A DNA stretch of 44,654 nucleotides from a virus (IMGVR_UViG_3300032323_000977:1-44654); one strand, 5' to 3'. Positions 7,400 to 22,859 are shown, counted from the stretch's first letter. The notes: generated from the letters alone by a model not told the origin. Program-made: numbers and translations.

Positions 7400-7401
7400 G
7401 G

Positions 7402-9747: not shown

Positions 9748-10244
9748 TAAAAAAGTTTAGTAGGTTTACTTCTTGCTAATTTGTTTCCTCTTGCAACTAC
9801 TGATCCGCCTTTAGACGCTTTCATCATTTTACCTGCCTTAGCACCTTGCATTCCACTTAATCTTGCTCTTAGTTTTGCTCTAGGACTATCAGAAAGTTCA
9901 TCTCCTCTTAATGATGCTATTCTTTGTTTTCTAGCTGCTTCATCTAATTTAAATGCTTCTACTGATCCTCTTGTTGGTGCAACAGTTGATGCCATTCTGT
10001 CTGCGCCTTCCATTTGGTTAAATGCAGTATCTCTTGCTTCTCTTCTTGCAATATCAATACTTGATTCAGGTGCTGCGTACATTGATCTACGTGCTGGGCC
10101 TTCCATTGCGTTGATGTCTGCTTCTGCTCCTTCTAACTTAGCAATTTCCATTGGACTTTTTTGTCCTAATACTTTAGACGCGCCGTATGCTGCAGCGAGA
10201 CCTAAACCTATTTTAGCTAAATCGTTTAATTTTTTTCTTGCCAT
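9747..10244 (-). CDS. basic virion-block protein with C-terminal KGG motif
   Basis: 165 residues, Ala/Arg/Lys rich. N-terminus has a short hydrophobic helix (LAKIGLGLAAAYGASKVLG). The C-terminus ends KASKGGSVVARGNKLARSKP then TKLF, a pattern shared with the protein at 11192-11704 (SKGGAVRGTGAAIRGTRP then AKLY). Start overlaps nothing; stop adjoins the portal ATG. Probably an internal or head-neck virion protein; no family recognised. Confidence 0.7.
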   Translation of the reverse strand: MARKKLNDLAKIGLGLAAAYGASKVLGQKSPMEIAKLEGAEADINAMEGPARRSMYAAPESSIDIARREARDTAFNQMEGADRMASTVAPTRGSVEAFKLDEAARKQRIASLRGDELSDSPRAKLRARLSGMQGAKAGKMMKASKGGSVVARGNKLARSKPTKLF

Positions 10245-10308
10245 GGTTGTTTCTCCTTGTTGTTATAACAAGTTTATTTTAACATGCAATGATAATTAGA
10301 ACTATACT

Positions 10309-10479
10309 TTACAGTAAATCGCTAATGTATCCACCGCTTTTTACCTTGATTTCTCCACCTTCTTGCTTCTTATTCTTCATGATATAAAGCTCTTGTTCTA
10401 ATATATCTACCTTATCTACATCGCCTTTCATTTTGGCTTCTTCTAATAATTGTAATAATTGTGTGTATCTATTTGCCAT
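10309..10479 (-). CDS. 56-residue helical protein with KSGG C-terminus
   Basis: Starts at ATG 10479, overlapping the stop of the previous gene (TAATG). The product MANRYTQLLQLLEEAKMKGD is followed by an acidic/hydrophobic helix and ends IKVKSGGYISDLL, parallel to the end of the neighbour (RFKSGGSVEVGKGKDYIKDL). The shared ends suggest a common binding or packaging signal. Function unknown. Confidence 0.6.
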   Translation of the reverse strand: MANRYTQLLQLLEEAKMKGDVDKVDILEQELYIMKNKKQEGGEIKVKSGGYISDLL

Positions 10480-10871
10480 TAAATTAAATCCTTTATGTAA
10501 TCTTTTCCTTTACCTACTTCTACAGATCCACCTGATTTAAATCTTTTAGTAATACCAAATCTAATTTCTTTTCCTTGTGGATTTTTTGATACACCCACAC
10601 CAGCAGTTGTTGATTTATCTTCTGAAGTATATTGTGCACCAAGTCCGAGGTCCGTGGAGCTTGATCCTGCAATACCGTATTCTGTTTGACCCTTCTTAAC
10701 ATTTGCTCCTATGACTGGCTTTTGTTTTTCAACATCTACACCAGCAGCAATATTTGCGTATTCACCTTTTGACTTATCTAATAAATCTTTATCAACTAAA
10801 TTTGTAAGATCAATTGCAGATCCTACAACCCTGTCACCAAGTGTTCTAGAAATTTTATTTAACGTACCCAC
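10479..10871 (-). CDS. virion-block protein with KSGG C-terminus
   Basis: 130 residues: an N-terminal helix (GTLNKISRTLGDRVVGSAID) and a beta-rich Gly/Ser middle (GVDVEKQKPVIGANVKKGQT, GLGAQYTSEDKSTTAGVGVS) that looks like amphipathic beta-strands. Ends with FKSGGSVEVGKGKDYIKDLI. One base from the next upstream gene. No family recognised. A single heptamer-type GTCCGTG lies inside at 10650-10656. Confidence 0.65.
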   Translation of the reverse strand: MGTLNKISRTLGDRVVGSAIDLTNLVDKDLLDKSKGEYANIAAGVDVEKQKPVIGANVKKGQTEYGIAGSSSTDLGLGAQYTSEDKSTTAGVGVSKNPQGKEIRFGITKRFKSGGSVEVGKGKDYIKDLI

Positions 10872-11183
10872 TTAGAACACGCCTCTAAAAGGAACCTTCT
10901 TCACTTGAATTGGTTTTTGTCCTCTAGCGAAACCACCTTCTCTAAAAGATTCTGTGTCTGTAACATTTGGAATTTTTTTAGCTGCTGTACCTTTTAAACT
11001 TTCATATGATACAGGGGGTTTTTCTTGATCGTAGAATCCTGGTTTAAATTCATTACGACTCATGTAAGGATCTTCTTTTGATACAACAGAAATTTTTCCA
11101 GATTGTGAATCTCGAATTGCTTTTGTGTTTTCCGATATACCTAGTTCTTTTAATTGTTTCTTGCTCATTGTCTTTTGTGACAT
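10872..11183 (-). CDS. small virion-block protein with EGG C-terminal motif
   Basis: 103 residues, hydrophilic, with a C-terminal segment REGGFARGQKPIQVKKVPF that again fits the G-G-x-x-x-R-G pattern of neighbouring proteins. N-terminus MSQKTMSKKQLKELGIS is helical. No membrane or catalytic motif. Between terL-side and portal-side genes; role unknown. Confidence 0.65.
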   Translation of the reverse strand: MSQKTMSKKQLKELGISENTKAIRDSQSGKISVVSKEDPYMSRNEFKPGFYDQEKPPVSYESLKGTAAKKIPNVTDTESFREGGFARGQKPIQVKKVPFRGVF

Positions 11184-11191
11184 ATTATCTC

Positions 11192-11704
11192 CTAGTATAG
11201 TTTAGCGGGTCTTGTGCCACGGATCGCGGCTCCTGTGCCTCTTACAGCGCCACCTTTAGAGAATGCTTGTCCCATTCCTCTTTCAGCCATTCCACCGCCT
11301 CGTTTGTTTTTAGTTCTTAACATTTTAAAATCTTCTCCAGATATTTTACCATCTTTGTTAACATCTAGTTTAGATTGCTTACCTGATAATCCACCCATCA
11401 TATCACCTTCTGCTGCTTTTTTCATTTTAGATTGACCTGCTTCAGATAATGCAATAGCGATTGCTTGTTTAGGATTTTTTACAACGGGTCCTTTTTTACC
11501 AGAATGTAATTCTCCTTTTTTAAATTCTCTCATTACTTTTCCAATTTTCTTTTGAGATTTAGTCATAGCACCTTTAGCTGCTTTAACCATTTTACCAGAT
11601 TCAGTTTCTTCGTAGCCTTCTTTTTCCATTTTAGTTTCTCTACCTTCTTTCATTGTAGATTCTCTGTCTTCATGTAGCTTAGACATGTCTTTAGCTTTTT
11701 TCAT
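11192..11704 (-). CDS. DUF6496-like protein with EF-hand loop and KGG C-terminus
   Basis: 170 residues from ATG 11704, chosen because AGGAG lies 5 nt upstream; an in-frame ATG at 11776 inside terL would add 24 unlikely residues. Middle part (KVMREFKKGELHSGKKGP, then NPKQAIAIALSEAG) matches DUF6496. It is followed by a canonical EF-hand calcium loop, DVNKDGKISGEDF, and ends SKGGAVRGTGAAIRGTRP. The N-terminal third is charged and repetitive. Placed directly after terL with a 7-nt gap. Function unknown; calcium binding is a motif-based inference. Confidence 0.75.
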   Translation of the reverse strand: MKKAKDMSKLHEDRESTMKEGRETKMEKEGYEETESGKMVKAAKGAMTKSQKKIGKVMREFKKGELHSGKKGPVVKNPKQAIAIALSEAGQSKMKKAAEGDMMGGLSGKQSKLDVNKDGKISGEDFKMLRTKNKRGGGMAERGMGQAFSKGGAVRGTGAAIRGTRPAKLY

Positions 11705-11711
11705 AGGGCTC

Positions 11712-13187
11712 CTAATAATATTTATATTCCTTTTGAACTCTATCCATAGGGTCTTTCCAATCGGACCCTGTCTCAATAAAGTTACCTTGTCGGTATCTTA
11801 ACACAGCTTGCGTAGTACTATCAACATAGTCATCATACTCTCCATGAGGAAAGGCGGCACATTCCTCAATAACCTCTTCTGCAAAGTGTTCTCCTTCTGG
11901 ATACCATACGGACCCTCCTTCAAATACAGGGGCACAAGCATTAACTCTAGAATGCTTATCTTTTCCACGTGATGGTGTAAAAGGAATTACGGGTATACCC
12001 ATTCTTCTAAACTCATGGGTTAAAGGCTCACCAGAAGCTTTAGCTTCAATAATAACAGAATCAGGTTCCCAGTATTTATATTGTTCCATAGCAACTGCTT
12101 TTAATTCTGGAAAATCATATTTACCTTTCATAGCATCTAATAATATTAAATTAGGACCCCCACCTTCTTCTGGAGTAAATATACCCCACGTAGTAATAGC
12201 AGAATAATCCGCAGACTCCTTTGCACTGAATGCAGTATCATAACTTTGTATAACATGTTGTAGATGTGGGATGTGTTCTTTCTCCCAAGGCTTCCACCAA
12301 TCTCGTTTTAATATAGCACCTTCTTCTGATGTAGGGTTCTGCATATATTGAGCAGACCAGTTACGAACAGGTAGTGTTGCTTTAACTCTTTCTAATTCAT
12401 CTATTTGCCAAAACTCTGGCCACAATGGTTTACCTGAATCTAGTATTGCAGGAAAAGATATTAGTTTCCATTTGTCTGCTTTATTTTCTTTTTGTCCTTT
12501 TATCAACATCCCTGTTAAATCGTTCTCGGCCCATCTTGTCATAACAAGAACTATAGATCCGCCAGGTTGCAAACGCTGTCTGGGTCCTGATGAATACCAT
12601 TCAAATGTTCTCTCCATTGCTTTCTTAGATAAGGAATCCTGTTCTGTATGTGGGTCGTCTATAATTAATAGATCGGCACCTCGTCCAGTAATTGCTCCGC
12701 CGACCCCCGCAGCAAAGTATTCACCGCCATGATTAGTTTCCCATCTACCTTTAGCTTTAGAATCTTCTCGTAATTTAACATCTCCAAATATTTGTTTATA
12801 TTCTTTTGAATCGATCAAGTTACGGATCTTCGCTCCGAATCTTGCTGATAATTCAGCGTTGTGTGTTACTTGCATTAATTTTAATTTTGGAAACTTGCCC
12901 ATCATCCAAGCAGGAAAGAATACAGAAGCAAATTCTGATTTGGTATGTCGGGGAGGCATATTAACAATAAGGCGCCCTTTTTTCTGATTTGCTATATCAG
13001 TAAATTCTTTAGACATAATTTGGTGATGGCCCCACTTTGAAGGGTCCTTTTCTTTACGCATGATAATATCAGGCCAAACCTCCTGAACAAAATATAAAAA
13101 ATTGTCCTGACAAAGTTTAATGTGTTGAATCCATTTCTTTTCTACTTCTTCGCGTAATCGTTCAGTTGTTAAGAATTCTTTTTCCAT
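11712..13187 (-). CDS. terL: terminase large subunit
   Basis: 491 residues. ATPase half: Walker A-like MPPRHTKSE (about 77-85), Walker B LLIIDDPH (173-180), coupling motif VLVMTRW (213-219). RNase H-like nuclease half: SYDTAFS with Asp317, EAKASG with Glu391 and YDDYVDS around 451-457 supplying the acidic residues. It packages DNA into the prohead and cuts concatemers. In most phages terS is directly upstream; here terS lies 4.8 kb away, beyond the nuclease and a plus-strand block. Confidence 0.93.
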   Translation of the reverse strand: MEKEFLTTERLREEVEKKWIQHIKLCQDNFLYFVQEVWPDIIMRKEKDPSKWGHHQIMSKEFTDIANQKKGRLIVNMPPRHTKSEFASVFFPAWMMGKFPKLKLMQVTHNAELSARFGAKIRNLIDSKEYKQIFGDVKLREDSKAKGRWETNHGGEYFAAGVGGAITGRGADLLIIDDPHTEQDSLSKKAMERTFEWYSSGPRQRLQPGGSIVLVMTRWAENDLTGMLIKGQKENKADKWKLISFPAILDSGKPLWPEFWQIDELERVKATLPVRNWSAQYMQNPTSEEGAILKRDWWKPWEKEHIPHLQHVIQSYDTAFSAKESADYSAITTWGIFTPEEGGGPNLILLDAMKGKYDFPELKAVAMEQYKYWEPDSVIIEAKASGEPLTHEFRRMGIPVIPFTPSRGKDKHSRVNACAPVFEGGSVWYPEGEHFAEEVIEECAAFPHGEYDDYVDSTTQAVLRYRQGNFIETGSDWKDPMDRVQKEYKYY

Positions 13188-13465
13188 GGGTCCTATTTTG
13201 ATTATACCGTGCTAATTCTTACCTTACTACGTTTATGAATCCTGCTCAAGCTTATCTTGCCTGAGCCTTACTAATTCGCGTTTAGGTTGTATTTTTGGAA
13301 TTTATTAAAAAGCATAAGGTCAACTGAGTAATGACCCTTAGGACATAGAGCCGTGCCTAACGCCTCGCGCCTCTATGTACTTGTGTGAATATACGTGAAG
13401 TTATTGGGAGTGATAAGTATAGTTATCGGAAGTAATGCGCCACGTTCACACAATGTCACACAACA
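13188..13465. other. intergenic region upstream of terL
   Basis: 278 bases without a convincing gene. It holds an 8-bp hairpin (13343-13378) and inverted and tandem TCACACAA boxes (13381-13475). The region is visibly richer in C and G than its surroundings. The 10-mer CCTCGCGCCT occurs here (13363-13372) and again at 13541-13550 inside the nuclease gene. Confidence 0.6.
13343..13378. other. hairpin with GC-rich loop
   Basis: ACATAGAG (13343-13350) pairs with CTCTATGT (13371-13378); the 20-nt loop is CG-rich and itself can fold. Neither strand shows a T-run after the stem, so a terminator is not clearly supported; a structured 5' leader of the terL transcript is possible. Confidence 0.45.
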
Positions 13466-13475
13466 TCACACAACG
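13381..13475. promoter_or_regulatory. TCACACAA box cluster (operator candidate)
   Basis: TTGTGTGAA (13381-13389) is the inverted copy of TTCACACAA (13445-13453). Three head-to-tail 10-bp units follow: TCACACAATG (13446-13455), TCACACAACA (13456-13465), TCACACAACG (13466-13475). The last unit contains the stop codon of the nuclease gene. Further copies of TCACACAA lie at 15199-15206 and 15268-15275. Spacing of one helical turn is typical for cooperative protein binding. Confidence 0.55.
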
Positions 13476-13840
13476 CGTTTGGCTAAGTCAGTCAGTAGGT
13501 ACTCGATACCTTGCGCGGTATCATCGGCGCTAGCTAAAAGCCTCGCGCCTAACGGCTCGACCTTATAAGTTTTAAGGTGGCCTTGCTTGCCTACCTTAAC
13601 TAAGTTAAATACGTGACCGCCGTACTTTATAAGCCTAAGTTGCCACGCTATCTGGTACTTACTAAGTCCTAAATTCTTAGCTGTTGTGTGTTTAAATTCC
13701 AACCAAAAGGCGCGCCCGTTTACTATACAAAAGCAGTCAGCACAACCTAGCGTTGTATATGTTTCAATTGATTGAAAGTAATAGTTTTTATTAACGTTTT
13801 TAACTCTTTTAATGAAAACGTTTTCGGGCTTTTTACTCAC
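13466..13840 (-). CDS. VRR-NUC-like PD-(D/E)XK nuclease
   Basis: 124 residues. The core GCADCFCIVNGRAFWLEFKH (about 32-51) gives the D...ExK signature of small VRR-NUC/Holliday-resolvase-like nucleases, preceded by a helix and followed by LSKYQIAWQLRLIKYGGHVF, the usual Q-x-x-W helix and strand. Likely cleaves branched or structured DNA during replication or packaging. It is transcribed with terL, and starts next to the promoter-rich gap that feeds the plus-strand block. Confidence 0.8.
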   Translation of the reverse strand: MSKKPENVFIKRVKNVNKNYYFQSIETYTTLGCADCFCIVNGRAFWLEFKHTTAKNLGLSKYQIAWQLRLIKYGGHVFNLVKVGKQGHLKTYKVEPLGARLLASADDTAQGIEYLLTDLAKRVV

Positions 13841-13909
13841 GTTTTATAATACAACTTATAAGCGAATTATACAAGTTAATAACACAACTATAAAGTTAAT
13901 AAAAAATTA

Positions 13910-13937
13910 TTGACAACTATTATTTAATAAGTAAATT
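13910..13937 (+). promoter_or_regulatory. sigma70-like promoter for the ardC block
   Basis: TTGACA at 13910-13915 and TAAATT at 13932-13937 with a 16-bp spacer, 35 nt upstream of the first plus-strand gene. The surrounding sequence is very AT-rich. Divergent from the nuclease gene. Confidence 0.5.
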
Positions 13938-13971
13938 GAGCATAACTTTAATAAAAAAAAGAGGATGTAAA

Positions 13972-14178
13972 ATGAAAAAAATGACAACGTTTACCTACTT
14001 TGAAAAAAAAGTATCTATTGACTGTTTAGGCAAAGGCCTTTTCAAAATATGGATATTAGATAATTTAGGGAATAGGGACTATGAGCCATTATATACAGTG
14101 AGAGACGCTCGCGTTAAAAAATACCCTCATTTAATTGACGCCTTTTGCGACAGCTGGGTTGCAAAAAACTTTAAATAA
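13972..14178 (+). CDS. 68-residue protein of unknown function
   Basis: Start at ATG 13972 chosen because it follows AAAGAGGATGTAA, the same leader as the ArdC gene; a TTG at 13936 would add 12 residues and lie in the leader. Product MKKMTTFTYFEKKVSIDCLG continues as a compact alpha/beta protein ending CDSWVAKNFK. First gene of the plus-strand antirestriction block. No family recognised. Confidence 0.65.
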   Translation: MKKMTTFTYFEKKVSIDCLGKGLFKIWILDNLGNRDYEPLYTVRDARVKKYPHLIDAFCDSWVAKNFK

Positions 14179-14190
14179 ATTTAATTAACT

Positions 14191-14233
14191 TACAGCGCTA
14201 TTCGTAGCGCTGTAGGATAGTTAAAAAACTATC
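14191..14233 (+). other. two tandem hairpins, one with a UUCG tetraloop
   Basis: TACAGCGCTA (14191-14200), TTCG (14201-14204), TAGCGCTGTA (14205-14214) is a perfect 10-bp stem closed by the extra-stable UUCG loop. GATAGTT (14216-14222), AAAA, AACTATC (14227-14233) follows at once. They lie between the 68-residue gene and ardC, 27 nt before the ardC start. No T-run follows, so an mRNA-stabilising or attenuating role is more likely than full termination. Confidence 0.65.
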
Positions 14234-14259
14234 ATTAACAACTAAAAAGAGGATGTAAT

Positions 14260-15195
14260 ATGTTTAGTAAATATACAAAAGACGCGTTAACTATCTTACA
14301 ACAAGAAATAGTTAACGGCTTAAAAAAAGACGGTTTAAAATATTTTAAATCGTTCAAAGGCTATGGATATCCTAAAAACGCGTTAACTCTTAAAGAGTAT
14401 AACGGCGTTAATTTCTGGGCTTTAAATATCCAAAAACGCGCATTAGATTTTAAATCTAATTTATGGGCAACTAAAAAGGCGTGGTCAAGTGTTGGCGCGA
14501 CTATTATTGACGGTCAAGAAAAAAACGGGCGCGCAATATTTTATTATAGCACGTTCAAAAAAAACGAGACTGAAAACGAGCAAAAACAATTTGCTTTTTT
14601 AAAAGTCTCTTATGTTTACAACGTGGCGCAAGTTGACCTAAAAAACTCAACTTATCACGTGCCTAGCGATACACCAGAAAACAAAGTTATTACTAATGAT
14701 GAGATTGAAAACTTTGTAAATTCTATTCGTGGCTTAGAGTTAAAACACTCAATAGACGGCCGTTGCTATTATAATTTAACTAGTGATGAGATTGTAATGA
14801 GTGACAAGGCAACGTTTACCGACACGCCCGACAATAGCGCAACGGGCAATTATTACTCGGTATTATTTCACGAGTTAATACATTGGTCGGGCGCTAAAAA
14901 TAGACTAGCGCGATTTGAAAAAAACAAAAAACGCTTTAAAGATAATGCACAACTTGAGTACGCGCACGAGGAATTAATAGCCGAGATTGGCGCGGTTTTA
15001 TTGTCGCAACGTTTTAATATGCAACAAACGATTAACAATAATAATTTAGCTTATTTAAAATCGTGGATATCCGCATTAGAAAACGATAATAAGTTTTTAA
15101 TTAGCGCGCTTTCGCAATCATACCGCGCAAGCGAGTTTTTGCTAAATAAAGGTAAGTTAAAAGAATATCCCGAGCAATTAAGGAAAGTTGCCTAA
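14260..15195 (+). CDS. ardC: ArdC-type antirestriction protein
   Basis: 311 residues. N-terminal half (about 1-125) matches the ArdC N-terminal ssDNA-binding domain (NGLKKDGLKYFKSF, NFWALNIQ, WATKKAW, GQEKNGRAIFYYSTFKKNE and VYNVAQVD). C-terminal half is a zincin: HELIHWSG (His204, Glu205, His208) with YAHEELIAEIGA supplying the third ligand. ArdC proteins coat incoming DNA and protect it from type I/II restriction; some carry the metallopeptidase domain as here. The leader AAAGAGGATGTAA repeats that of the preceding gene. It sits in the middle of the GATC-free segment. Confidence 0.88.
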   Translation: MFSKYTKDALTILQQEIVNGLKKDGLKYFKSFKGYGYPKNALTLKEYNGVNFWALNIQKRALDFKSNLWATKKAWSSVGATIIDGQEKNGRAIFYYSTFKKNETENEQKQFAFLKVSYVYNVAQVDLKNSTYHVPSDTPENKVITNDEIENFVNSIRGLELKHSIDGRCYYNLTSDEIVMSDKATFTDTPDNSATGNYYSVLFHELIHWSGAKNRLARFEKNKKRFKDNAQLEYAHEELIAEIGAVLLSQRFNMQQTINNNNLAYLKSWISALENDNKFLISALSQSYRASEFLLNKGKLKEYPEQLRKVA

Positions 15196-15207
15196 ATATC
15201 ACACAAT

Positions 15208-15231
15208 AAAGCGGGCGTAAAAGCCCGCTTT
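15208..15231 (+). terminator. hairpin terminator after ardC
   Basis: AAAGCGGGC (15208-15216), loop GTAAAA, GCCCGCTTT (15223-15231): a perfect 9-bp stem 12 nt after the ardC stop. T-tract is limited to the three Ts closing the stem, so termination may be partial. A new promoter starts 10 nt downstream. Confidence 0.7.
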
Positions 15232-15240
15232 AAAAAATTA

Positions 15241-15275
15241 TTGACAACAATATAAATTAATATAATTTCACACAA
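15241..15275 (+). promoter_or_regulatory. promoter and operator upstream of the GP88 gene
   Basis: TTGACA at 15241-15246 and TATAAT at 15261-15266; the 14-bp spacer is short, a weaker TAATTT at 15263-15268 gives 16 bp. TCACACAA at 15268-15275 directly abuts the -10 box, as expected for a repressor site over the start point; the same box also lies at 15199-15206. Confidence 0.5.
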
Positions 15276-15292
15276 AAAAAGGACGGTATAAA

Positions 15293-15994
15293 ATGGAATA
15301 TAAAACACAAAAAAAGTTATTAAGTTTTAATAACTTTAAAATGCAAAAATCAGTTAAATTTGGATATTTGACGGCTATACTACATTTAGCGCCATACAAC
15401 CTAAGCGGGTACAATATTTGCCCTAAGGCCTCGCAAGGTTGCGCTATGGCTTGTTTAAATACGGCGGGACGTGGCCAAATGAATTGTGTACAAAAGGCAC
15501 GAATTAATAAAACGTTATACTTTTTAAAAGACCGCCAAAAGTTTTTAGAGCATTTATTTAACGAGATAACAACATATGAAAAACTAGCCAAAAGTAAAAA
15601 TTTAAAATTAGCCGTAAGATTAAACGGGACTAGTGATTTACCTTTTGAACGATATAGATTTAAAGATAATAAAAATTTAATGGAATTATTCCCGAACGTT
15701 CCATTTTATGATTATACAAAAATATTAAATCGTTTTAATCAAGTGTTGCCAAAAAATTACAGTCTTACGTTTTCGCGAAGTGAAAGCAACGAAAACGAAG
15801 TTAAAGAATTAATAACAACTGATAATAATATTGCGGTTGTTTTTAATAAACTACCTAAAAAATATATGGGTAGACGCGTTGTGACGGGAGATGAAAGCGA
15901 TTTGCGTTTTCTTGACCCGAAAAAAACAATAATCGGTTTACTAGCTAAGGGACGCGCGAAAAAAGACAATAGCGGGTTTACGGTTATTAATTAA
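15293..15994 (+). CDS. GP88-family protein
   Basis: 233 residues. The N-terminal two thirds fit the phage GP88 family (PF17338): SVKFGYLTAILHLAPYNLSG, NICPKASQGCAMACLNTAGR, then KARINKTLYFLKDRQKFLEH and KLAVRLNGTSDL. Cysteines 43, 50, 54 and 65 are arranged like a metal or Fe-S site. Biochemical function of the family is not established to my knowledge. Own promoter and operator upstream; ribosome site AAAAAGGACGG. Second conserved gene of the antirestriction block, suggesting a host-takeover or defence-evasion role (inference). Confidence 0.8.
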   Translation: MEYKTQKKLLSFNNFKMQKSVKFGYLTAILHLAPYNLSGYNICPKASQGCAMACLNTAGRGQMNCVQKARINKTLYFLKDRQKFLEHLFNEITTYEKLAKSKNLKLAVRLNGTSDLPFERYRFKDNKNLMELFPNVPFYDYTKILNRFNQVLPKNYSLTFSRSESNENEVKELITTDNNIAVVFNKLPKKYMGRRVVTGDESDLRFLDPKKTIIGLLAKGRAKKDNSGFTVIN

Positions 15995-16009
15995 AAAAGG
16001 ACATAAAAA

Positions 16010-16213
16010 ATGATAACAAAAAATGACGCTCTTAACTTAATAGACGCTTTAAACGAGTGGTACGAAATAGTTGAGCCTAAAGAATTAGAAAAAAATGAAA
16101 TAGGTTTAAATATTGAACGTTATGAAAGCCTTATATTTAAGTTGCATTTAATAGCAGAAAACATAAAAAAAGTTGGTAATAAAATAATAGTTAACAATAG
16201 AGGGTTAAATTAA
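16010..16213 (+). CDS. 67-residue helical protein
   Basis: MITKNDALNLIDALNEWYEI then an acidic helical middle and a basic end (NIKKVGNKIIVNNRGLN). Preceded by AAAAAAGGACATAAAAA, the leader shared by several genes here. One base before the next gene. No family. Confidence 0.6.
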   Translation: MITKNDALNLIDALNEWYEIVEPKELEKNEIGLNIERYESLIFKLHLIAENIKKVGNKIIVNNRGLN

Positions 16214-16214
16214 A

Positions 16215-16409
16215 ATGAGACAATTAACAAAAAAGCAGAAAAAAATATTAGATGTTTATCAAAATATTTATAGACTTGAGGACTTGCCTAATGGCGTTTT
16301 TGAGCAACTAGAAAAAATAAACGATACTGAAATTTTATGGTCAGAGACAAATAGGTATTTGTCAGATAATTACTATAAAAATTTATATAACAACAAAGGA
16401 GTAAATTAA
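16215..16409 (+). CDS. 64-residue helical protein
   Basis: MRQLTKKQKKILDVYQNIYR opens with a basic helix, followed by an acidic segment and a tyrosine/asparagine-rich tail. One-base gaps to both neighbours; the ribosome site lies within the end of the previous gene. The first 20 residues resemble the helical start of many small phage proteins. No function assigned. Confidence 0.55.
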   Translation: MRQLTKKQKKILDVYQNIYRLEDLPNGVFEQLEKINDTEILWSETNRYLSDNYYKNLYNNKGVN

Positions 16410-16410
16410 A

Positions 16411-16593
16411 ATGAAAACATATAAATTAGAGACAAGGACGGTTGAAATAATAACACTTAACGCCGAAAACGAGGAGCAAGCAAAAGAAATGGCGGTTAGT
16501 GGATATTGCGATAACGTAAGGTCACTAGAATTTTTTATAGATGATATAGAAAATATAACACCAACTAAAAAAGAGGACATAAAAAATGACTGA
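16411..16593 (+). CDS. 60-residue protein with DpnD/PcfM-like pattern
   Basis: The sequence MKTYKLETRTVEIITLNAEN then EEQAKEMAVSGYCDN shows the beta-strand, (N/D)(A)xNEExAxE helix pattern seen in small DpnD/PcfM-like phage proteins. Similarity is a pattern only. ATG follows CAAAGGAG by 9 nt. The end overlaps the next gene by 8 nt. Confidence 0.6.
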   Translation: MKTYKLETRTVEIITLNAENEEQAKEMAVSGYCDNVRSLEFFIDDIENITPTKKEDIKND

Positions 16594-16804
16594 AAAACAA
16601 AAAATAGATTTATTATATTTTTTAGATGTTTATAAAGACGATTTAATAATTAATATGACTGATAAAAAGTTATATGACGACCCGTGGCAAAAGTCGGATA
16701 TTAATTTACTTAATAAACATTTTAAGCTTATTAAAAAATTAATAGGCGCAAAATTAATATTTAATAAAAAACTAAAAAAATGGAGTTTAAAATATGAAAA
16801 CTAA
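16586..16804 (+). CDS. 72-residue basic protein
   Basis: MTEKQKIDLLYFLDVYKDDL acidic-hydrophobic start, then a basic C-terminal half (HFKLIKKLIGAKLIFNKKLK). Leader AAGAGGACATAAAAA. Overlaps both neighbours by a few bases. No family recognised. Confidence 0.6.
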   Translation: MTEKQKIDLLYFLDVYKDDLIINMTDKKLYDDPWQKSDINLLNKHFKLIKKLIGAKLIFNKKLKKWSLKYEN

Positions 16805-17051
16805 AAAAATAAACATAATGGAAAACGTGCGAGGATATAAGAATATATCTTTAAAATTAGATACCTATTCAAAGTTATTTGATTTGTCGCAAAAAGTTTT
16901 TGGCGTGCCTATTAGTATCGCGAAAACGGTTGAGTTTTTAGCAGATAATTACACTAATGGCGCGGGGGTCAATAATCACGTGCCTAGCAATTACAATGTA
17001 GTTATCCCGCAATACTTGCCTAAACAAATTAAAAAAATAGGTAGAAAATGA
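16794..17051 (+). CDS. ribbon-helix-helix-like regulator candidate
   Basis: 85 residues. After a short basic start, YKNISLKLDTYSKLFDLSQK forms the beta-strand plus helix 1 pattern of CopG/Arc-like proteins (strand NISLKLD), followed by SIAKTVEFLADNYTN as helix 2. Such proteins bind DNA as dimers at short tandem operators; the TCACACAA and TTTTCCCAG boxes nearby are possible targets (inference). Overlaps the previous gene by 11 nt and the next by 4. Confidence 0.6.
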   Translation: MKTKKINIMENVRGYKNISLKLDTYSKLFDLSQKVFGVPISIAKTVEFLADNYTNGAGVNNHVPSNYNVVIPQYLPKQIKKIGRK

Positions 17052-17242
17052 CAATAAAAAACTTTGAAATTGGAAATAAAGTTAAACACGTTGACCAAGA
17101 TATAATTGGTAAGATTGTTTCATTACATTACGATACTAATGAAATAACTATAAAAGATATTCACTCGGAATATAATTATCCAGATAATTTATTAGTTTAT
17201 AGGCCTAGTGAACTAATTAAAATAAACAAAGGAGGGTTTTAA
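17048..17242 (+). CDS. 64-residue SH3/KOW-like small protein
   Basis: FEIGNKVKHVDQDIIGKIVS has the G-x-x-V-x-h-x-x-x-x-x-G-x-I pattern of a small SH3-like barrel, and the following strands (TNEITIKD, LLVYRPSELIKI) fit. ATGA overlap with the RHH candidate. Could be a nucleic-acid-binding adaptor; function not known. Confidence 0.55.
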   Translation: MTIKNFEIGNKVKHVDQDIIGKIVSLHYDTNEITIKDIHSEYNYPDNLLVYRPSELIKINKGGF

Positions 17243-17243
17243 T

Positions 17244-17579
17244 ATGGCGCAACATATTTCAATTAAACATTATTTAAACGAGGACTGGCTATTTAATTTA
17301 ATTGACCAATGTAAGACAATAGCGTGGCAATATAGAGAAATTGAAAATAGTACTACTTATTTTAAACAAATAAGCGAAAACGTTAAATTATTACCTATTG
17401 AATATGCTTGCGATTATGACAAGCCAAAAGTATTTAGGAGGGTTAATAAGGTTTTTAACTATAAATGCAATATAGATAAGCCGTTAACAAAAGAGGATGA
17501 CAATCTTTTTATTAGCGATTGTAATATAGAAATACATTTAGATAAAAGTAAACTAGTTGATATTTTTATAGTTGCTTAA
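17244..17579 (+). CDS. 111-residue protein, end of the ardC block
   Basis: Sequence MAQHISIKHYLNEDWLFNLI then mixed alpha/beta; no motif recognised. Ribosome site AAAGGAGGG. It converges with the minus-strand gene at 17576-17875 and the two stop codons overlap by 4 nt, with no hairpin between, so antisense read-through is expected. Confidence 0.6.
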   Translation: MAQHISIKHYLNEDWLFNLIDQCKTIAWQYREIENSTTYFKQISENVKLLPIEYACDYDKPKVFRRVNKVFNYKCNIDKPLTKEDDNLFISDCNIEIHLDKSKLVDIFIVA

Positions 17580-17875
17580 ATCTTTTTAATATCAATTATA
17601 ACTGAATTAGGAATTAGCGTTGTGTTGGCAATTTCATCAATTACGCCCGTTTTTTCATCTTTAAGGGCGTAGTCGCCAAATACTCGCGTAATGCCCTTAG
17701 ATTGCGTTAATAAGTGCCCTTTTGTAGTGCATATAGGCAATTTCGCGTTGATTAAATCGTTGATATCTTGCCACGCGCTATCGCTAGTTATATCGAGCCA
17801 TTTTATTTCAACTAGCGGATATTTTTCTATTTCTTTTTTAGCTTTTTTATTTATTGTTAATTTTCTTTTTATCAT
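17576..17875 (-). CDS. small conserved phage protein
   Basis: 99 residues. The pattern VEIKWLDITSDSAWQDINDL, then AKLPICTTKGHLLTQSKGIT and IPNSVIIDIKKI, resembles a small beta-rich family frequent in phage genomes (W-x-D-I-x-x-D-S-x-W, then C-x-T-x-G). Function unknown. Likely co-transcribed with terS. Converges with the plus-strand block. Confidence 0.65.
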   Translation of the reverse strand: MIKRKLTINKKAKKEIEKYPLVEIKWLDITSDSAWQDINDLINAKLPICTTKGHLLTQSKGITRVFGDYALKDEKTGVIDEIANTTLIPNSVIIDIKKI

Positions 17876-18014
17876 TTATTTTTATTGCTACAATTCCAAG
17901 TTTAGCGCTTAGGTGGCTATTATGTACTTTGTTAAAAGTATTGATAAAAGTTTCCCAGTCGCTATTTAACAATTTCTGTTTCAGAAGTGATGTCGATAAT
18001 CGATTTATTTTCAT
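17847..18014 (-). CDS. 55-residue overlapping gene between terS and the 99-residue gene
   Basis: ATG at 18014 lies inside terS; the frame is open through the 87-nt gap and closes inside the next gene. Product starts MKINRLSTSLLKQKLLNSDW and has a central helix (ETFINTFNKVHNSHLSAKLG). No clear ribosome site, so coding is uncertain; a TTG at the terS end is an alternative start. The overlap chain with both neighbours supports it. Confidence 0.4.
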   Translation of the reverse strand: MKINRLSTSLLKQKLLNSDWETFINTFNKVHNSHLSAKLGIVAIKINDKKKINNK

Positions 18015-18474
18015 TTAATTTATTTTCTAATTCCGATAATCTTTTTTCAAGTTGCTCGCGGGACATACCCTCGAGGCCAACGTGTGACACTTCTTTTTTA
18101 TCAATATAAAAACCAGATAATTGACCCATACGAAATTCGCCTTGTATTGCAGAATTATATTGATTTTTTTCTTCAGCTTTATTTCGTAAACGTTCTAAAG
18201 TTTTATAAGAACGTAATTTATCTTTTTCATATTTTTGCAATTCTTGCGATAGTCTTTTTTCTAGATATCTTACAACGTGCGGATTTAATTCTGGATTAGT
18301 TAATTTGCTCGCGGTTTCATATGGTTTACTTCCGTCTTTAGTTGTATAGCCCGCCTCAATACAAGCGTCAGCTTTTGTTATATTGCCCCAATTAGACGCT
18401 AAAATATCCACAAACTTACGTTGTTTTAAAGTTAAATCGGATATTGTTTTTAAAGTGTTTTTCTTGGACGCCAT
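17962..18474 (-). CDS. terS: terminase small subunit
   Basis: 170 residues. LTLKQRKFVDILASNWGNIT followed by KADACIEAGYTTKDGSKPYE and ASKLTNPELNPHVVRYLEKR is the helix-turn-helix region of the Terminase_2 family. The rest is coiled coil ending in a flexible tail. It recognises the packaging site and activates TerL. Unusually it is separated from terL by 4.8 kb, including the plus-strand ardC block. A TTTTCCCAG array lies 135 nt upstream of its start. It contains no GATC. Confidence 0.82.
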   Translation of the reverse strand: MASKKNTLKTISDLTLKQRKFVDILASNWGNITKADACIEAGYTTKDGSKPYETASKLTNPELNPHVVRYLEKRLSQELQKYEKDKLRSYKTLERLRNKAEEKNQYNSAIQGEFRMGQLSGFYIDKKEVSHVGLEGMSREQLEKRLSELENKLNENKSIIDITSETEIVK

Positions 18475-18608
18475 AGAAAATCATTTTAACTGTTTTCCCT
18501 AAAGTAATCTATATACAAATATTTTTTAAAAATTATTTTTCTATACAAGTGTTTCCGTTTAGTAATCATTTAATTACTATTTATTAAAAAAGTATTGTAT
18601 TTATTGAC

Positions 18609-18821
18609 TTTTCCCAGAGTTGTCAATAACTGGGAAAAAATAACCCTTGATATTGCTATCTTTTCCCAGTTTGACAAAACTTTTAGGAATGAATAACCCA
18701 TTGATATATATGTATTATTTGGCATATTTGTCAATTTTTCCCAGTTTTTGACCTATTTCCAAACTACTTTTTAAAATTTTTTTTGTATACAACTACCTTA
18801 GTGGGTACATTTCTGGGAAAA
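18609..18821. repeat. TTTTCCCAG iteron/operator array
   Basis: Five exact 9-mers: TTTTCCCAG at 18609-18617, 18661-18669 and 18736-18744, and the inverted CTGGGAAAA at 18630-18638 and 18813-18821. The first two form an inverted repeat with a 12-nt spacer. TTGACA or TTGTCAA lies within a few bases of the first three sites. Weaker copies: GTTTCCCAG near 17950 and TTTCCTAG at 18830-18837. No copy was noticed elsewhere. Confidence 0.8.
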
Positions 18822-18900
18822 TTGGCGTATTTCCTAGCTTATTTTTTCCGAAAGTATTGACAAATTCCTAGTTTCAAAAAGCTATATAAATCAATACTTT

Positions 18901-18966
18901 GTCCGTGAGCCGTGAGCCGTGTATCGTTTTACGCGGTATTTTGAACAAGCCCCACGCAACACGGAA
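18901..18966. repeat. NNCCGTG heptamer repeats, two orientations
   Basis: GTCCGTG (18901-18907), AGCCGTG (18908-18914), AGCCGTG (18915-18921) in tandem; then, inverted, CACGCAA (18953-18959) and CACGGAA (18960-18966), the reverse complements of TTGCGTG and TTCCGTG. The two arms can pair imperfectly into a GC-rich structure in an AT-rich region. Confidence 0.75.
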
Positions 18967-19009
18967 CTCGTGCCTACTCACTCAAACCGACTTGTTATGA
19001 ATTTTTAAA

Positions 19010-19035
19010 CTAGTGGTGGGTAAGGCCACCACTAG
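19010..19035 (+). other. 10-bp hairpin ahead of the leader ORF
   Basis: CTAGTGGTGG (19010-19019), 6-nt loop, CCACCACTAG (19026-19035). No T-run follows. The ribosome site AAAGGACG of a 19-codon ORF begins 7 nt downstream, so this may be a 5' mRNA structure. Confidence 0.65.
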
Positions 19036-19053
19036 CAAAGAAAGGACGTAAAA

Positions 19054-19113
19054 ATGTTTAATGATTTTTACAGCAATATATTAGTATTTCTAAATAAAAG
19101 TGTCAACAAATAA
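19054..19113 (+). CDS. 19-residue leader-like peptide
   Basis: ATG 19054 preceded by AAAGGACGTAAAA, the same ribosome-site leader as the ardC-block genes. Product MFNDFYSNILVFLNKSVNK. Too short to classify; either a leader peptide, a remnant of a gene start, or chance. Confidence 0.35.
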   Translation: MFNDFYSNILVFLNKSVNK

Positions 19114-19127
19114 TTTTTTTAAGTTAT

Positions 19128-19187
19128 TTGACAATAAAATCAAGGACTTAACTTTTTTGTCAATTTTTCTTTTGACAACAATTGACG
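19128..19187 (+). promoter_or_regulatory. cluster of -35-like boxes upstream of the early genes
   Basis: TTGACA at 19128-19133 and 19172-19177, TTGACG at 19182-19187, and inverted TTGTCAA near 19157. -10 boxes are not well matched at ideal spacing (TTAATC/TAAATT around 19190-19200), so the boxes could instead be protein-binding sites like those in the upstream array. Confidence 0.4.
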
Positions 19188-19229
19188 AATAAATTAATCG
19201 TTAATCATTAACAAAATAAAGGAGTAAAA

Positions 19230-19400
19230 ATGATAATAGAAGTAGTAGACAAGATAAACGGAAGTAAATTTGATTTATCAAATATACCGTTTGTTTATGA
19301 CATTGAAAGTGCAAAAACTTTTCTAATGGAAAGCTCGCCTTTTTTTAATTCCGAAGATGATTTTCAAAGGTATGAATTTAACATAATAGGAGTTAAATAA
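19230..19400 (+). CDS. 56-residue early protein
   Basis: Start ATG 19230 after AAAGGAG. Product MIIEVVDKINGSKFDLSNIP continues acidic (SPFFNSEDDFQRYEFNIIGV). First gene of the long early tiny-gene operon. Stop overlaps the next ATG (TAATG). No family recognised. Confidence 0.6.
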   Translation: MIIEVVDKINGSKFDLSNIPFVYDIESAKTFLMESSPFFNSEDDFQRYEFNIIGVK

Positions 19401-19633
19401 TGACTAAAAAATATAAATACGAGGTAGAAGAATACTCACAAGATACAAGAAGTTTTTATGTTGAAAGTGATATTGAACTAACTCACGATGAAATAAATGA
19501 GTGTGTTTCAAATGCCTCGTTTAATGAACATACTAAAACAGGGACAGAAATAAAGGGGCACAAAGTATATACCCAATACACTGGAACTGATTTCGGCGAT
19601 GATTGCCAAATAAATATATCGGAGGTGGAATAA
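19400..19633 (+). CDS. 77-residue early protein
   Basis: MTKKYKYEVEEYSQDTRSFY then an acidic middle (DIELTHDEINECVSNASF) and beta-type C-terminal half. The layout (strand, helix with E/N, strands) resembles small phage proteins of the DpnD/PcfM-like pattern only loosely. TAATG overlaps at both ends. Confidence 0.6.
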   Translation: MTKKYKYEVEEYSQDTRSFYVESDIELTHDEINECVSNASFNEHTKTGTEIKGHKVYTQYTGTDFGDDCQINISEVE

Positions 19634-19800
19634 TGAACGAAGATATAAAAACAATTAAACAGTATATAAAAACTTTTAATGACAGAAAATTAAGAGAGGA
19701 ATATAGACTATATACCTCGCTTGAAAGACCAACAATACTTGAAAACTATTTTAAAGATTTCATTAAAAAAGAAATAGATACAAGGGGGATTGGAGTATGA
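19633..19800 (+). CDS. 55-residue early protein
   Basis: ATG 19633 preferred over an upstream TTG because GGAGGTGG lies 5 nt ahead and the ATG overlaps the preceding stop (TAATG). Product MNEDIKTIKQYIKTFNDRKL is a charged two-helix peptide. Overlaps the next gene by 4 nt. Confidence 0.6.
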   Translation: MNEDIKTIKQYIKTFNDRKLREEYRLYTSLERPTILENYFKDFIKKEIDTRGIGV

Positions 19801-20078
19801 AAAAAGAAAAGACATTATTACGTTTTAGAATTTATGACGGCGACAGAGAATATACGGACTACGCCATTATAGATAATAAACAATTATTAACTTTAAATTA
19901 TAAAGAAATAATTTCTAAATTTTTTTATGATGACAAAGTTAATGATGAGCAATTCTTATCGGACGGCAGAGCCGTTAGAGTTGAAAGCGAAATACCTATA
20001 ACTGATGCAGATGTAAAAAAGCTAGAAAACTTAAGTATGGCTTACCTACACGACTTTAAATTAAAGGAGGTCGCATAA
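19797..20078 (+). CDS. 93-residue early protein
   Basis: MKKEKTLLRFRIYDGDREYT, then strand-rich region and an acidic helix (EIPITDADVKKLENLSMAYL). Ribosome site GGGGG within the previous gene. Alpha/beta, soluble. No family recognised. Confidence 0.6.
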   Translation: MKKEKTLLRFRIYDGDREYTDYAIIDNKQLLTLNYKEIISKFFYDDKVNDEQFLSDGRAVRVESEIPITDADVKKLENLSMAYLHDFKLKEVA

Positions 20079-20266
20079 TGGCTATAACAATTAATGACAT
20101 TAAAGACTGGCTAGAGAACGAAATGTTCGTATATGAAGATTACGTTAAGGCCAGAGAAAACGGGGACGAGCCATTACACGATGACGGCACGGATGACATT
20201 AATTGCGGTCGTCATAAATGTGCAGAGCAATTATTAATGTATATAACTAGAAAAGAAAAAGAATGA
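20078..20266 (+). CDS. 62-residue helical protein, paralogue-like
   Basis: The pattern INDIKDWLENEMFVYEDYVK then GRHKCAEQLLMYI parallels the gene at 21522-21728 (DIKDVVAWLEEELAHFEMAV, then AQEQLAWIL), so the two look like diverged copies of one small helical family. Preceded by AAAGGAGG. Function unknown. Confidence 0.6.
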   Translation: MAITINDIKDWLENEMFVYEDYVKARENGDEPLHDDGTDDINCGRHKCAEQLLMYITRKEKE

Positions 20267-20433
20267 AAACTTTTATTATAACTGAATACCCAGAACTTTA
20301 TAGAAAATGGAAAGTTTTAGGAAAAAATAAAAAAGAGGCTTGGGAAAATTGGTTAAACGATAAAATAGAACTTATAGAAGAAGATTATGACGAACAATAT
20401 AAACCTGTAGAAATGGAGAAGTTAAAACAATGA
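20263..20433 (+). CDS. 56-residue acidic protein
   Basis: ATGA overlap at both ends. Product MKTFIITEYPELYRKWKVLG then KKEAWENWLNDKIELIEED: strand, E-A-W helix, acidic tail, a pattern common in small phage proteins. Function unknown. Confidence 0.55.
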   Translation: MKTFIITEYPELYRKWKVLGKNKKEAWENWLNDKIELIEEDYDEQYKPVEMEKLKQ

Positions 20434-20684
20434 CTACAATACTAGACGCAGTAAAAAAGTTAGATGAAACAATCGCTAGACAAAAAAGTATTGCTAATAA
20501 ATTAGTAGAAGAACACAAACAACTACAAGAGGCGTTAGCAATAGTATGTTGTAATGCAGATGAAGATTGTCCGTTAGAGTATAGAACTGAACATTTTAGA
20601 TCAGCTATAACCGATGGTTATGACTTACTTAAAAAAGTAGGATACTTTAAAAACAAAAAGAGGGTAAACAAATGGGACATTTAA
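20430..20684 (+). CDS. 84-residue coiled-coil protein
   Basis: MTTILDAVKKLDETIARQKS then NKLVEEHKQLQEALAIVCCN is one long heptad helix; C-terminal half is less regular (DEDCPLEYRTEHFRSAI). Overlaps the zinc-finger-like gene by 13 nt. Contains the first GATC (20599) after the GATC-free segment. Confidence 0.6.
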   Translation: MTTILDAVKKLDETIARQKSIANKLVEEHKQLQEALAIVCCNADEDCPLEYRTEHFRSAITDGYDLLKKVGYFKNKKRVNKWDI

Positions 20685-20917
20685 AACCTAATAAACATTG
20701 TAAAACTTGTGATGTAAGAGGCGACTACACTTGTTTAGAGTGTGAAAGCATACAAATAAAAAATAAAGGTCTTTATGTTTTAGAGTGTGAATATTGTATG
20801 GAATATCCATTAAAATCTTATGTTGAAGATGAACTTGGTGGAGTTTTTTGTAATGAACATTGTTTTAAACAAATGCCTTATGAAAATAAATGGAAAATAA
20901 TAGGGAGGTCAGCGTGA
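20672..20917 (+). CDS. cysteine-rich, probable zinc-binding protein
   Basis: 81 residues with two sets of metal-type cysteines: C10-x2-C13 and C21-x2-C24 (KHCKTCDVRG, YTCLECE), then C39-x2-C42 and C60-x3-C64 (LECEYCMEYP, VFCNEHCF). This fits two small zinc knuckles or ribbons. Possible regulator or inhibitor of host transcription (inference). Ends in a GTGA overlap with the next gene. Confidence 0.65.
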   Translation: MGHLKPNKHCKTCDVRGDYTCLECESIQIKNKGLYVLECEYCMEYPLKSYVEDELGGVFCNEHCFKQMPYENKWKIIGRSA

Positions 20918-21168
20918 GCATACCAGATGTAGATATGCCTATTGGCTTTCTTTATGAAACAACATTGATGAAATATGCTAGTGGTAAATTAACTAAAGAC
21001 GGAATGATTATGACGCCAGATGAGGCATTAGAACATTTTAAGCAATTAGCTATTGATGAGGGCTTTGCAGAAAGCACAATAGAAAATTCGGCAGAGGAAC
21101 TAATTTACGATTTAAAAGAAGTAGAAGAACGAAAGTATCAAGAATACCTAGAGGAGAAAGATGGCTAA
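20914..21168 (+). CDS. 84-residue acidic protein (GTG start)
   Basis: GTG 20914 chosen: GGGAGG lies 5 nt upstream and the GTGA overlaps the previous stop; an in-frame ATG at 20890 lies inside the previous gene. Product V/MSIPDVDMPIGFLYETTLMK, acidic helical C-terminus (EELIYDLKEVEERKYQEYL). No family recognised. Confidence 0.6.
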   Translation: MSIPDVDMPIGFLYETTLMKYASGKLTKDGMIMTPDEALEHFKQLAIDEGFAESTIENSAEELIYDLKEVEERKYQEYLEEKDG

Positions 21169-21346
21169 AGCATACATAGTACATAGGAAAGATTTGTCGT
21201 TCGGAATTTATTACACCCTAGATACATTGTTTAGGGAAATAAATAACAGAGAAATAAAAGCAAACGATTATTATTTCTTTGCAAATGAAGAAAAGGCATT
21301 AGCCTTTCAAGACCAACTAATAAACAAACAAAGGAGCAAGAAATGA
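21161..21346 (+). CDS. 61-residue protein
   Basis: MAKAYIVHRKDLSFGIYYTL then EEKALAFQDQLINKQRSKK: strand-strand-helix layout typical of small phage regulators of unknown role. Ribosome site GGAGAAAG within the previous gene. Confidence 0.55.
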   Translation: MAKAYIVHRKDLSFGIYYTLDTLFREINNREIKANDYYFFANEEKALAFQDQLINKQRSKK

Positions 21347-21525
21347 GTAAAGATAAACTAACAGAAAGACAATGGGACGAACTTAGAGCAAGTACTGTTG
21401 AACGCATTATGGATATGAACGAAACAGAGGCAAAAGAAGAACTTGAAGAATATATCTTTGATGAAATGAGCAATAAACCAAAAGACTACTTACTTGAATG
21501 TGGTTGGATAACGGAGGAAAAATGA
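21343..21525 (+). CDS. 60-residue acidic helical protein
   Basis: MSKDKLTERQWDELRASTVE then NETEAKEELEEYIFDEMSNK; strongly acidic helices, ends LLECGWITEEK. ATGA overlaps both neighbours; AAAGGAGC precedes. No family recognised. Confidence 0.55.
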   Translation: MSKDKLTERQWDELRASTVERIMDMNETEAKEELEEYIFDEMSNKPKDYLLECGWITEEK

Positions 21526-21728
21526 AAGACATAAAAGACGTTGTAGCGTGGCTCGAGGAAGAATTGGCACACTTCGAAATGGCAGTAGAACAACATAACT
21601 ATGTATCTAAAGCAGATGAGATTAGATACAGAATGGCACAAGAACAACTAGCGTGGATATTAGGTGCAAAGTTTGATCCTAAATATTCCGTGAGCCGTGT
21701 TCCGTGCAACTCGGAACAGGGGGCTTGA
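21522..21728 (+). CDS. 68-residue helical protein, paralogue-like
   Basis: ATG 21522 chosen: ACGGAGG lies just upstream and ATGA overlaps the preceding stop; an earlier in-frame ATG (21498) lies inside that gene. Similar in pattern to 20078-20266. The last 15 codons are written across an NNCCGTG heptamer cluster (21686-21706), so the C-terminus may be derived from that insertion. Confidence 0.6.
   Translation: MKDIKDVVAWLEEELAHFEMAVEQHNYVSKADEIRYRMAQEQLAWILGAKFDPKYSVSRVPCNSEQGA
21686..21706 (+). repeat. NNCCGTG heptamer x3
   Basis: TTCCGTG (21686-21692), AGCCGTG (21693-21699), TTCCGTG (21700-21706), then CAACTCGG. The downstream AACTCGGAAC and GGGGGCTTG recall, in reverse complement, the CAAGCCCC and ACACGGAACTCG of the 18901 cluster, so the two places share more than the heptamers. 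Confidence 0.75.
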
Positions 21729-21922
21729 TGGGAATGCACAAACGCTTTTATTTACTATTCAACGAACTCGCTTTTGATTACGACAGATTAAGCGATCACG
21801 GACAAAAGACCTATTGCGAAATGCAAAAGATACTCGGACTTATAACTGAGGAAGAAATGCAAATGGCATTAGATTACGAGAAAGAAAAACTAAACAACAA
21901 ATCATTCGGGAGTAGAACATGA
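21728..21922 (+). CDS. 64-residue protein
   Basis: ATG 21728 overlaps the previous stop (TGATG). Product MGMHKRFYLLFNELAFDYDR, then acidic helix (GLITEEEMQMALDYEKEKL). The usual ribosome site is replaced by a GGGGG run from the adjacent repeat. No family. Confidence 0.55.
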   Translation: MGMHKRFYLLFNELAFDYDRLSDHGQKTYCEMQKILGLITEEEMQMALDYEKEKLNNKSFGSRT

Positions 21923-22101
21923 ACGTAGAAGATTACGGAGTAAAAAAATCTTGGGACGGATGGCGTACCTTTGCTTATGTTCGTGATGGTACACCTATGG
22001 GACTGATGCCTATAACTTGGGCTAATGAACTATTTAAAACTAAACAACAAGCTAAAACATTTATAAATGATTTAGCTACAAAGAATGGATGGAAGAAATG
22101 A
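21919..22101 (+). CDS. 60-residue protein
   Basis: MNVEDYGVKKSWDGWRTFAY then strand-rich (VRDGTPMGLMPITWANELFK) and helix with QQAKTFINDL. ATGA overlaps both neighbours. No family recognised. Confidence 0.55.
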   Translation: MNVEDYGVKKSWDGWRTFAYVRDGTPMGLMPITWANELFKTKQQAKTFINDLATKNGWKK

Positions 22102-22322
22102 AAGCGTGGACACCACCAACAGATTATTTAGACCCACCTAAACCACCACGACACTATAAATACGTATGGTTAAGGTTTGATATTAAAACTAAAAAGTTTA
22201 AATATCCATTGGTAAGGCATAAACAACTTAAAAATAAAAAAAGATTTCCTTTTATTTACATTAAACATTATGGTAAATGTGTAGGAATAGAGGGACTAAC
22301 ACTAGCTAAAATAAAACTATGA
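22098..22322 (+). CDS. 74-residue basic proline-rich protein
   Basis: ATG 22098 gives an ATGA overlap; an ATG 9 nt earlier would also fit. Product MKAWTPPTDYLDPPKPPRHY followed by basic strand-rich sequence (YVWLRFDIKTKKFKYPLVRH) and GKCVGIEGLTLAKIKL. Could bind nucleic acid; unknown. Confidence 0.55.
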   Translation: MKAWTPPTDYLDPPKPPRHYKYVWLRFDIKTKKFKYPLVRHKQLKNKKRFPFIYIKHYGKCVGIEGLTLAKIKL

Positions 22323-22471
22323 AACCAATTGTAATAATTATGTGCTTACTTCTATCTGGTTGCTTTGGCGCTGAATTATTTAAACTAGGTGGCATTGGTA
22401 TAAAAACGGGGGATGTAATTACAGTACCTCACAAAATAGAAACACTAACAAAGGATAAAAATGATAAGTAA
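22319..22471 (+). CDS. 50-residue lipoprotein
   Basis: MKPIVIIMCLLLSGCFGAEL is a lipoprotein signal peptide with a perfect lipobox LSGC (Cys15). The mature part is about 35 residues, Gly-rich then basic. ATGA overlap upstream. An early-region lipoprotein would sit in the host periplasm and could act in superinfection exclusion, as known phage lipoproteins do; that role is inference. Confidence 0.65.
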   Translation: MKPIVIIMCLLLSGCFGAELFKLGGIGIKTGDVITVPHKIETLTKDKNDK

Positions 22472-22858: not shown

Positions 22859-22859
22859 T

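Follow-up and report, generated by a model that had tools for sequence, protein, structure and literature searches.

The window analyzed here is the whole of a 44,654-bp stretch of DNA whose source record is that of a virus. Domain and family searches of its encoded proteins identified a TerL, a portal, a DNA polymerase A, a UvrD-type helicase, and a primase-like protein. The portal is 68% identical to that of Pelagibacter phage HTVC023P and the TerS is 59% identical to the HTVC023P TerS. The genome was categorized as HTVC023P-type based on its related portal, TerL, and TerS and on the multi-gene block that separates TerS from TerL; the location of these two genes several kb apart with a block in between is a family trait that is also found in HTVC023P and HTVC027P. 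The late genes run leftward from terL (start at 13,187). Scans of the contigs and the window returned no tRNA or Rfam matches. The features of the locus are as follows, with clades A and B as defined below.

11,712–13,187, minus strand: terminase large subunit TerL (PF17289, phrog_38); site density normal up to the start codon
12,829–20,598, no strand: GATC-free interval, as given in the initial annotation
13,188–13,465, no strand: intergenic step upstream of terL, where site density drops from approximately 10–12 per 500 bp to zero
13,241–20,598, no strand: restriction-site desert, with 1 site over 11 restriction-type motifs in 7.36 kb
13,466–13,840, minus strand: small ORF (phrog_2165)
14,260–15,195, plus strand: ArdC-type antirestriction protein (ArdcN PF08401 and MPTase-PolyVal PF18818; HELIH at residue 204)
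15,293–15,994, plus strand: GP88 family protein (PF17338, phrog_1617)
16,010–17,579, plus strand: series of small rightward ORFs, presumed early genes
17,576–17,875, minus strand: small ORF (phrog_25889)
17,962–18,474, minus strand: terminase small subunit TerS, a core gene; sites purged in clade A only
18,475–19,399, no strand: control region, largely non-coding, in which direct and inverted TTTTCCCAG repeats overlap TTGAC-like boxes
19,400–20,684, plus strand: additional early ORFs at the desert's far end
20,599–25,200, no strand: graded edge, where observed/expected sites in 2-kb bins climb from 1/11 to 6/15, 8/14, and 15/20

The antirestriction protein was assigned to the ArdC family as it combines an ArdcN domain with a zincin-like metallopeptidase domain containing an HExxH motif, and both PF08401 and PF18818 scored above the cut-off. 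The initial annotation had reported that positions 12,829 to 20,598 contain no GATC, which is exact: the neighboring sites are at 12,825 and 20,599, leaving a gap of 7,774 bp in a window that holds 130 GATC sites and has a second-largest gap of only 1,604 bp. Under uniform placement of 130 sites, the probability of such a gap is approximately 2e-9. The estimate of about 15 GATC sites in the portal gene was also confirmed by counting (15). A count of eleven motifs (GATC, GANTC, GCNGC, CCNGG, CCN7GG, CCNNGG, GGNCC, GGNNCC, CATG, CCGG, and GTWAC) resulted in 268 sites in 1–13,186, 1 site in 13,241–20,598, and 266 sites in 20,599–44,654. Besides GATC, the motifs CCNGG, CCN7GG, GANTC, GCNGC, GGNCC, GGNNCC, CATG, and CCGG are all at zero in 13,241–20,598. 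The left part of the GATC gap, 0.4 kb that lies within terL, lacks GATC but contains sites for other motifs. The depletion is specific to restriction sites and broader than GATC; some ten further type II-like motifs are purged to an equal extent, which leaves the proposed GATC specificity or GATC-methyl-sensing system without support. No phage-encoded GATC methylase was found among the window proteins scanned.

Relatives were collected using TerL, ArdC, TerS, and GP88, and the block from the TerS start minus 2 kb to the TerL start was compared. Contigs with a TerS identity of 70% and up were categorized as clade A (14 contigs, 87 kb), and those with a TerS identity of 54–62% were categorized as the distant clade B (17 contigs, 114 kb of homologous block). 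The clade-A contigs are mutually related, with TerL identity down to about 75%, and their counts are not independent. Against a Markov-2 expectation, GATC was observed/expected 6/124 times in the clade-A block, 479/403 times downstream of terL, and 379/397 times in the clade-B block. All two-plus-two tetramers with gaps of 0–11 were also scanned (1,632 tests) with a threshold of below 25% of expectation. Nine motifs fell below this threshold in the clade-A block, all of them palindromes: CCNGG (0 observed/64 expected), GCNGC (1/97), CCN7GG (CCNNNNNNNGG; 1/64), GATC (6/145), CCGG (6/64), GANTC (16/145), CCNNGG (8/64), GGNCC (14/64), and CATG (52/213). These nine are the known type II sites of ScrFI, Fnu4HI, BslI, MboI, HpaII, HinfI, BsaJI, Sau96I, and NlaIII (REBASE). 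Type II sites are underrepresented in the block relative to composition-corrected expectation, and in this comparison of tetramers among relatives other palindromes are as absent as GATC, which again speaks against GATC specificity. The same bipartite scan returned only CCGG and TCGA below 25% in the DNA downstream of terL and no motif below 25% of expectation in the clade-B blocks; nearly all of the purged motifs have normal density in both of these controls.

The purge is exact with respect to spacing: CCN7GG, which has the BslI spacing, is purged, CCN4GG is present at 62/64, and CC/GG pairs with spacers of 5, 6, or 8 were not flagged. The 5-mers GTWAC, GAAGC, GAAGG, and GAACC are depleted as well; to our knowledge no enzyme matches GAAGG, GAACC, or GTWAC, which counts against a restriction-based reading. 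The purge holds even though members do not carry the same set of genes in the block. Other motifs vary by member: CGCG and GCGC are at zero in G002, L013, L096, L100, G004, and L099, whereas the blocks of the window, G001, and L008 contain about 30, and avoidance of CATG and GGCC likewise varies.

Base composition was rejected as a cause, as the clade-B blocks L028 and L029, equally low in GC, have normal GATC. Codon usage and protein sequence were excluded with a null in which synonymous codons were shuffled within each gene, keeping the protein and the codon usage. In clade-A TerS, the observed counts compared with the shuffles were 0 versus 12.4 for GATC, 0 versus 5.4 for GANTC, 1 versus 14.5 for GAAGC, 2 versus 13.8 for GAAGG, and 0 versus 6.2 for GAACC; the GATC count in clade-B TerS was 41 versus 34.3. 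Within the window, GATC was observed 0 times versus 7.8 in the desert ORFs and 32 times versus 28.6 in the late genes. The share of palindromes among the top-ranked depleted tetramers was discarded as evidence, being partly an artefact: control segments from this window and from T5 also contained 1–8 palindromes in the top ten. Palindromes rank high in any short segment because their expected count is half that of other tetramers and their counts vary more, and the inference therefore rests on pooled clade counts, with an expectation of at least 64 for each motif, and on the clade-A downstream and clade-B controls.

The two edges of the desert differ in shape. The boundary near 13,240, which falls within the terL upstream gap, is sharp: clade-A contigs contain approximately 10–12 sites per 500 bp as far as the terL start codon and 0–1 per 500 bp thereafter, and the position of the step is identical in all of them. 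The last clade-A sites before the desert are at +2 and in a conserved element approximately 40–65 bp upstream of the terL start; this element, TACTACGTTTATGAATCCTGCTCAAG, retains one GAATC. Homology of four relatives ends at 13,358–13,359. The far edge is graded and fades over about 4–6 kb, with observed/expected counts in 2-kb bins rightward from terL of 2/18, 1/10, 0/15, 1/11, 6/15, 8/14, and 15/20 in the window and of 1/12, 0/8, 1/15, 0/14, 2/10, 9/16, 11/18, and 20/18 in the 61.9-kb relative G004. Across 2-kb bins from terL, no trend is seen in the distant G011. Judged from these sequence features, the gap upstream of terL is a candidate genome terminus or packaging site. Upstream of terL, contig ends are enriched over the first 1 kb (about 27 of 76 contigs), where they are scattered and do not converge on a single base; this enrichment is suggestive of a terminus, and differences between strains at the border of a module would be another possible cause.

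Phage T5, the record of which annotates positions 1–10,219 as FST DNA that is first to enter, was used as a positive control in the same scan. The most depleted motifs were GGNCC, CCNGG, CCNNGG, and GGNNCC, most strongly in the first 10 kb, where counts per 5 kb were 0.14 and 0.28 of expectation compared to 0.33–1.01 in later bins up to 80 kb; the first EcoRI site is at 30,220. Pre-early genes of the FST are involved in restriction insensitivity, and EcoRI sites are found only elsewhere in T5 (PMC9345386). Like the FST, the block in the window lacks restriction sites that the rest of its genome has (268/1/266). Depletion in T5 is partial (0.14–0.28) and moderate elsewhere in that genome too, whereas in the block about ten motifs drop almost to zero and the edge is a step; T5 also has two-step entry, which is hypothetical for the block, and the phages are unrelated, with no homology claimed.

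Phages also avoid short type II sites genome-wide as passive antirestriction, for example T7 (Rusinov 2018, PMC6286503). The window genome resembles these phages in avoiding CCGG and TCGA throughout, but its purge is confined to about 12% of the genome, and elsewhere most motifs reach or exceed expectation. In conjugative plasmids, the leading regions contain anti-defence genes that enter first (Samuel 2024, PMC11541004), restriction-site loss has been reported for some plasmids (RP4), and ArdC is found on IncW plasmids (PMC7690428). The likeness to these regions lies in an ArdC-family gene in DNA thought to enter first; unlike them, the window is double-stranded phage DNA with terminase genes, and its purge is regional, covers many motifs, and has a step edge. 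In T7, the antirestriction gene 0.3 (Ocr) is located about 1 kb from the entering end and terL is near the opposite end. The antirestriction gene of the window is similarly approximately 1 kb from the proposed entering end, but it encodes ArdC and not Ocr, and we infer the terminus and the entry order. Genome-wide site avoidance (PMC6286503), the T5 FST as a regional case, and anti-defence genes in plasmid leading regions (PMC11541004) were thus already known, and our searches of the open-access literature turned up no description of a phage whose purge is regional, covers many motifs, and has a step edge.

We consider it likely that the block at 13.24–20.6 kb is the first-entering end of the genome and has been selected for the near-absence of type II sites. 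Incoming DNA would meet host restriction enzymes before any phage protein is made, and since restriction kills phages that are cut before protective proteins exist, sites would be lost where exposure is unprotected; those in the first 7–9 kb would be costly and hence lost. Later-entering DNA would be shielded by the products of the first block, with ArdC as a candidate, and could keep its sites. In lambda and T7, packaging begins at the terminase-gene end, which is the last to enter the cell; the same polarity is predicted for this genome, with the terL and late-gene end as the first part to be packaged and the last to enter. The block, nearly cleared of common restriction sites, probably enters first and looks like a built-in shield until protective proteins are made. 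This supports the shielded leading region put forward in the initial annotation, with the entry order as a prediction: relatives share the purge, which extends to the core gene TerS, survives the codon null, and has one sharp and one graded edge, with ArdC close to the former. The GATC specificity and the alien composition that accompanied that proposal were not supported.

Restriction could instead select on a block that is exposed or unprotected at another step, such as an early-replicating segment, which would suit the complex control region and the TerS located there. A sharp edge on one side and a graded edge on the other fit a terminus, and a replication origin predicts gradients on both sides, so we regard selection at another step as unlikely. 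Import of the block from a lineage or element of other composition, with the missing motifs as a by-product, would account for some members having CGCG and GCGC contents strongly unlike those elsewhere in the window, but it is very improbable given that the TerS is homologous to the clade-B TerS, which has normal sites, that low-GC clade-B blocks have normal GATC, and that the purge is motif-exact (CCN7GG and not the neighboring spacings), survives codon shuffles, and is common to members that differ in their genes and in their CGCG content. RNA-level selection on early transcripts, through an RNase or a translation effect, would be compatible with the early-type genes of the block and deserves very little credence, as the purge extends to non-coding DNA and to genes of either strand, and the motifs are DNA sites with two-fold symmetry, including one whose spacer is fixed at 7 bases, a pattern typical of dimeric DNA enzymes. 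A GATC-specific function (methylation sensing, Dam-like regulation, or a GATC nuclease), for which GATC being absent in the block and slightly overrepresented outside could be cited, has next to no chance of explaining the gap and is refuted as the sole cause by at least eight other palindromes that are absent to the same degree.

If the block does enter first, its ArdC is the named candidate for the protector, judged from family and position. The distant relative G004 likewise has ArdC and GP88 as the first large rightward genes. Searches for ArdC in the desert members G002, L013, and L097 did not find it, and L028 and L029 have ArdC-like sequence without the full desert; other early genes must therefore matter too, and ArdC is not the sole explanation. 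In cultured HTVC027P, phage transcripts rise only from 3 h, and those of gp30, gp33, and gp34 are high at 3–9 h, early-to-middle (PMC12753301). These three genes map between TerS and TerL and have a bearing on the window via homology only. LD12 is one plausible host type; a Lake Biwa LD12 genome has GANTC methylation only (PMC6329791), and thus either the host differs or the host enzymes are unsampled. A TerL match, sought in bacterial genome contigs as an indication of the host, was found in one marine MAG contig only.

More tentatively, and as a possibility that we would not yet favor, a podovirus-like lineage unrelated to T5 may use a paused, T5-like two-step entry in which a restriction-proof beachhead of approximately 8 kb enters ahead of the rest and disarms the host, with the exact combination of purged motifs (a common core and lineage-specific additions such as CATG, GGCC, CGCG, and GCGC) being a readable record of the restriction enzymes of uncultured hosts. 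Regional purges of this kind would offer a sequence-only route to locating the first-entering end of phage genomes, uncultured phages and hosts included, and a readout of the restriction specificities used by hosts without culture. Restriction-site avoidance can be strictly regional and directed at many enzymes together, and the old T5 question of why only the leading DNA must lack sites becomes testable in abundant aquatic phages. Contigs of intermediate depletion also occur, namely G005 (TerL 83%) and a few others with TerL identities of 74–83%.

CCGG does not occur at all in the window and TCGA is scarce, with 23 sites along its whole length; avoidance of these two motifs therefore looks genome-wide and not regional. 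Within the block nearly free of restriction-type motifs (13,241–20,598 of the window), the relatives divide by their content of CGCG and GCGC. Both are plentiful (about 30 sites each) in the block of the subgroup of contigs L007, L008, G001 and G003, whereas the block of a second subgroup (G002, L013, L016, L097 and G004) is essentially without them. This contrast between subgroups suggests lineage-specific avoidance or composition. In phage T5 (AY543070, positions 1–10,000; L206), the first-step-transfer DNA seems poor in several palindromes beyond EcoRI.

Conserved non-coding elements, among them a AGTGATAA...TTATC dyad present in many relatives, lie at 13,188–13,465, 5' of the terminase large subunit gene (terL). 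Among the relatives' contigs L004–L083, assembly breaks are concentrated in the stretch 0–1,000 bp 5' of terL, where about 27 of the 76 contigs end. Between the gene for the terminase small subunit and the early genes, direct and inverted TTTTCCCAG repeats overlap TTGAC-like boxes at 18,598–18,821, an arrangement that probably represents a divergent operator-promoter region.

Two further genes of the window were annotated as follows.

32,944–34,353, strand opposite to its neighbours: SNF2/ResIII-type helicase gene
34,985–35,623: S-adenosylmethionine decarboxylase gene (PF02675)

In PADLOC the helicase gene matches best to the helicase portion of ZorD and DpdE. The S-adenosylmethionine decarboxylase is an unusual auxiliary gene for a phage.
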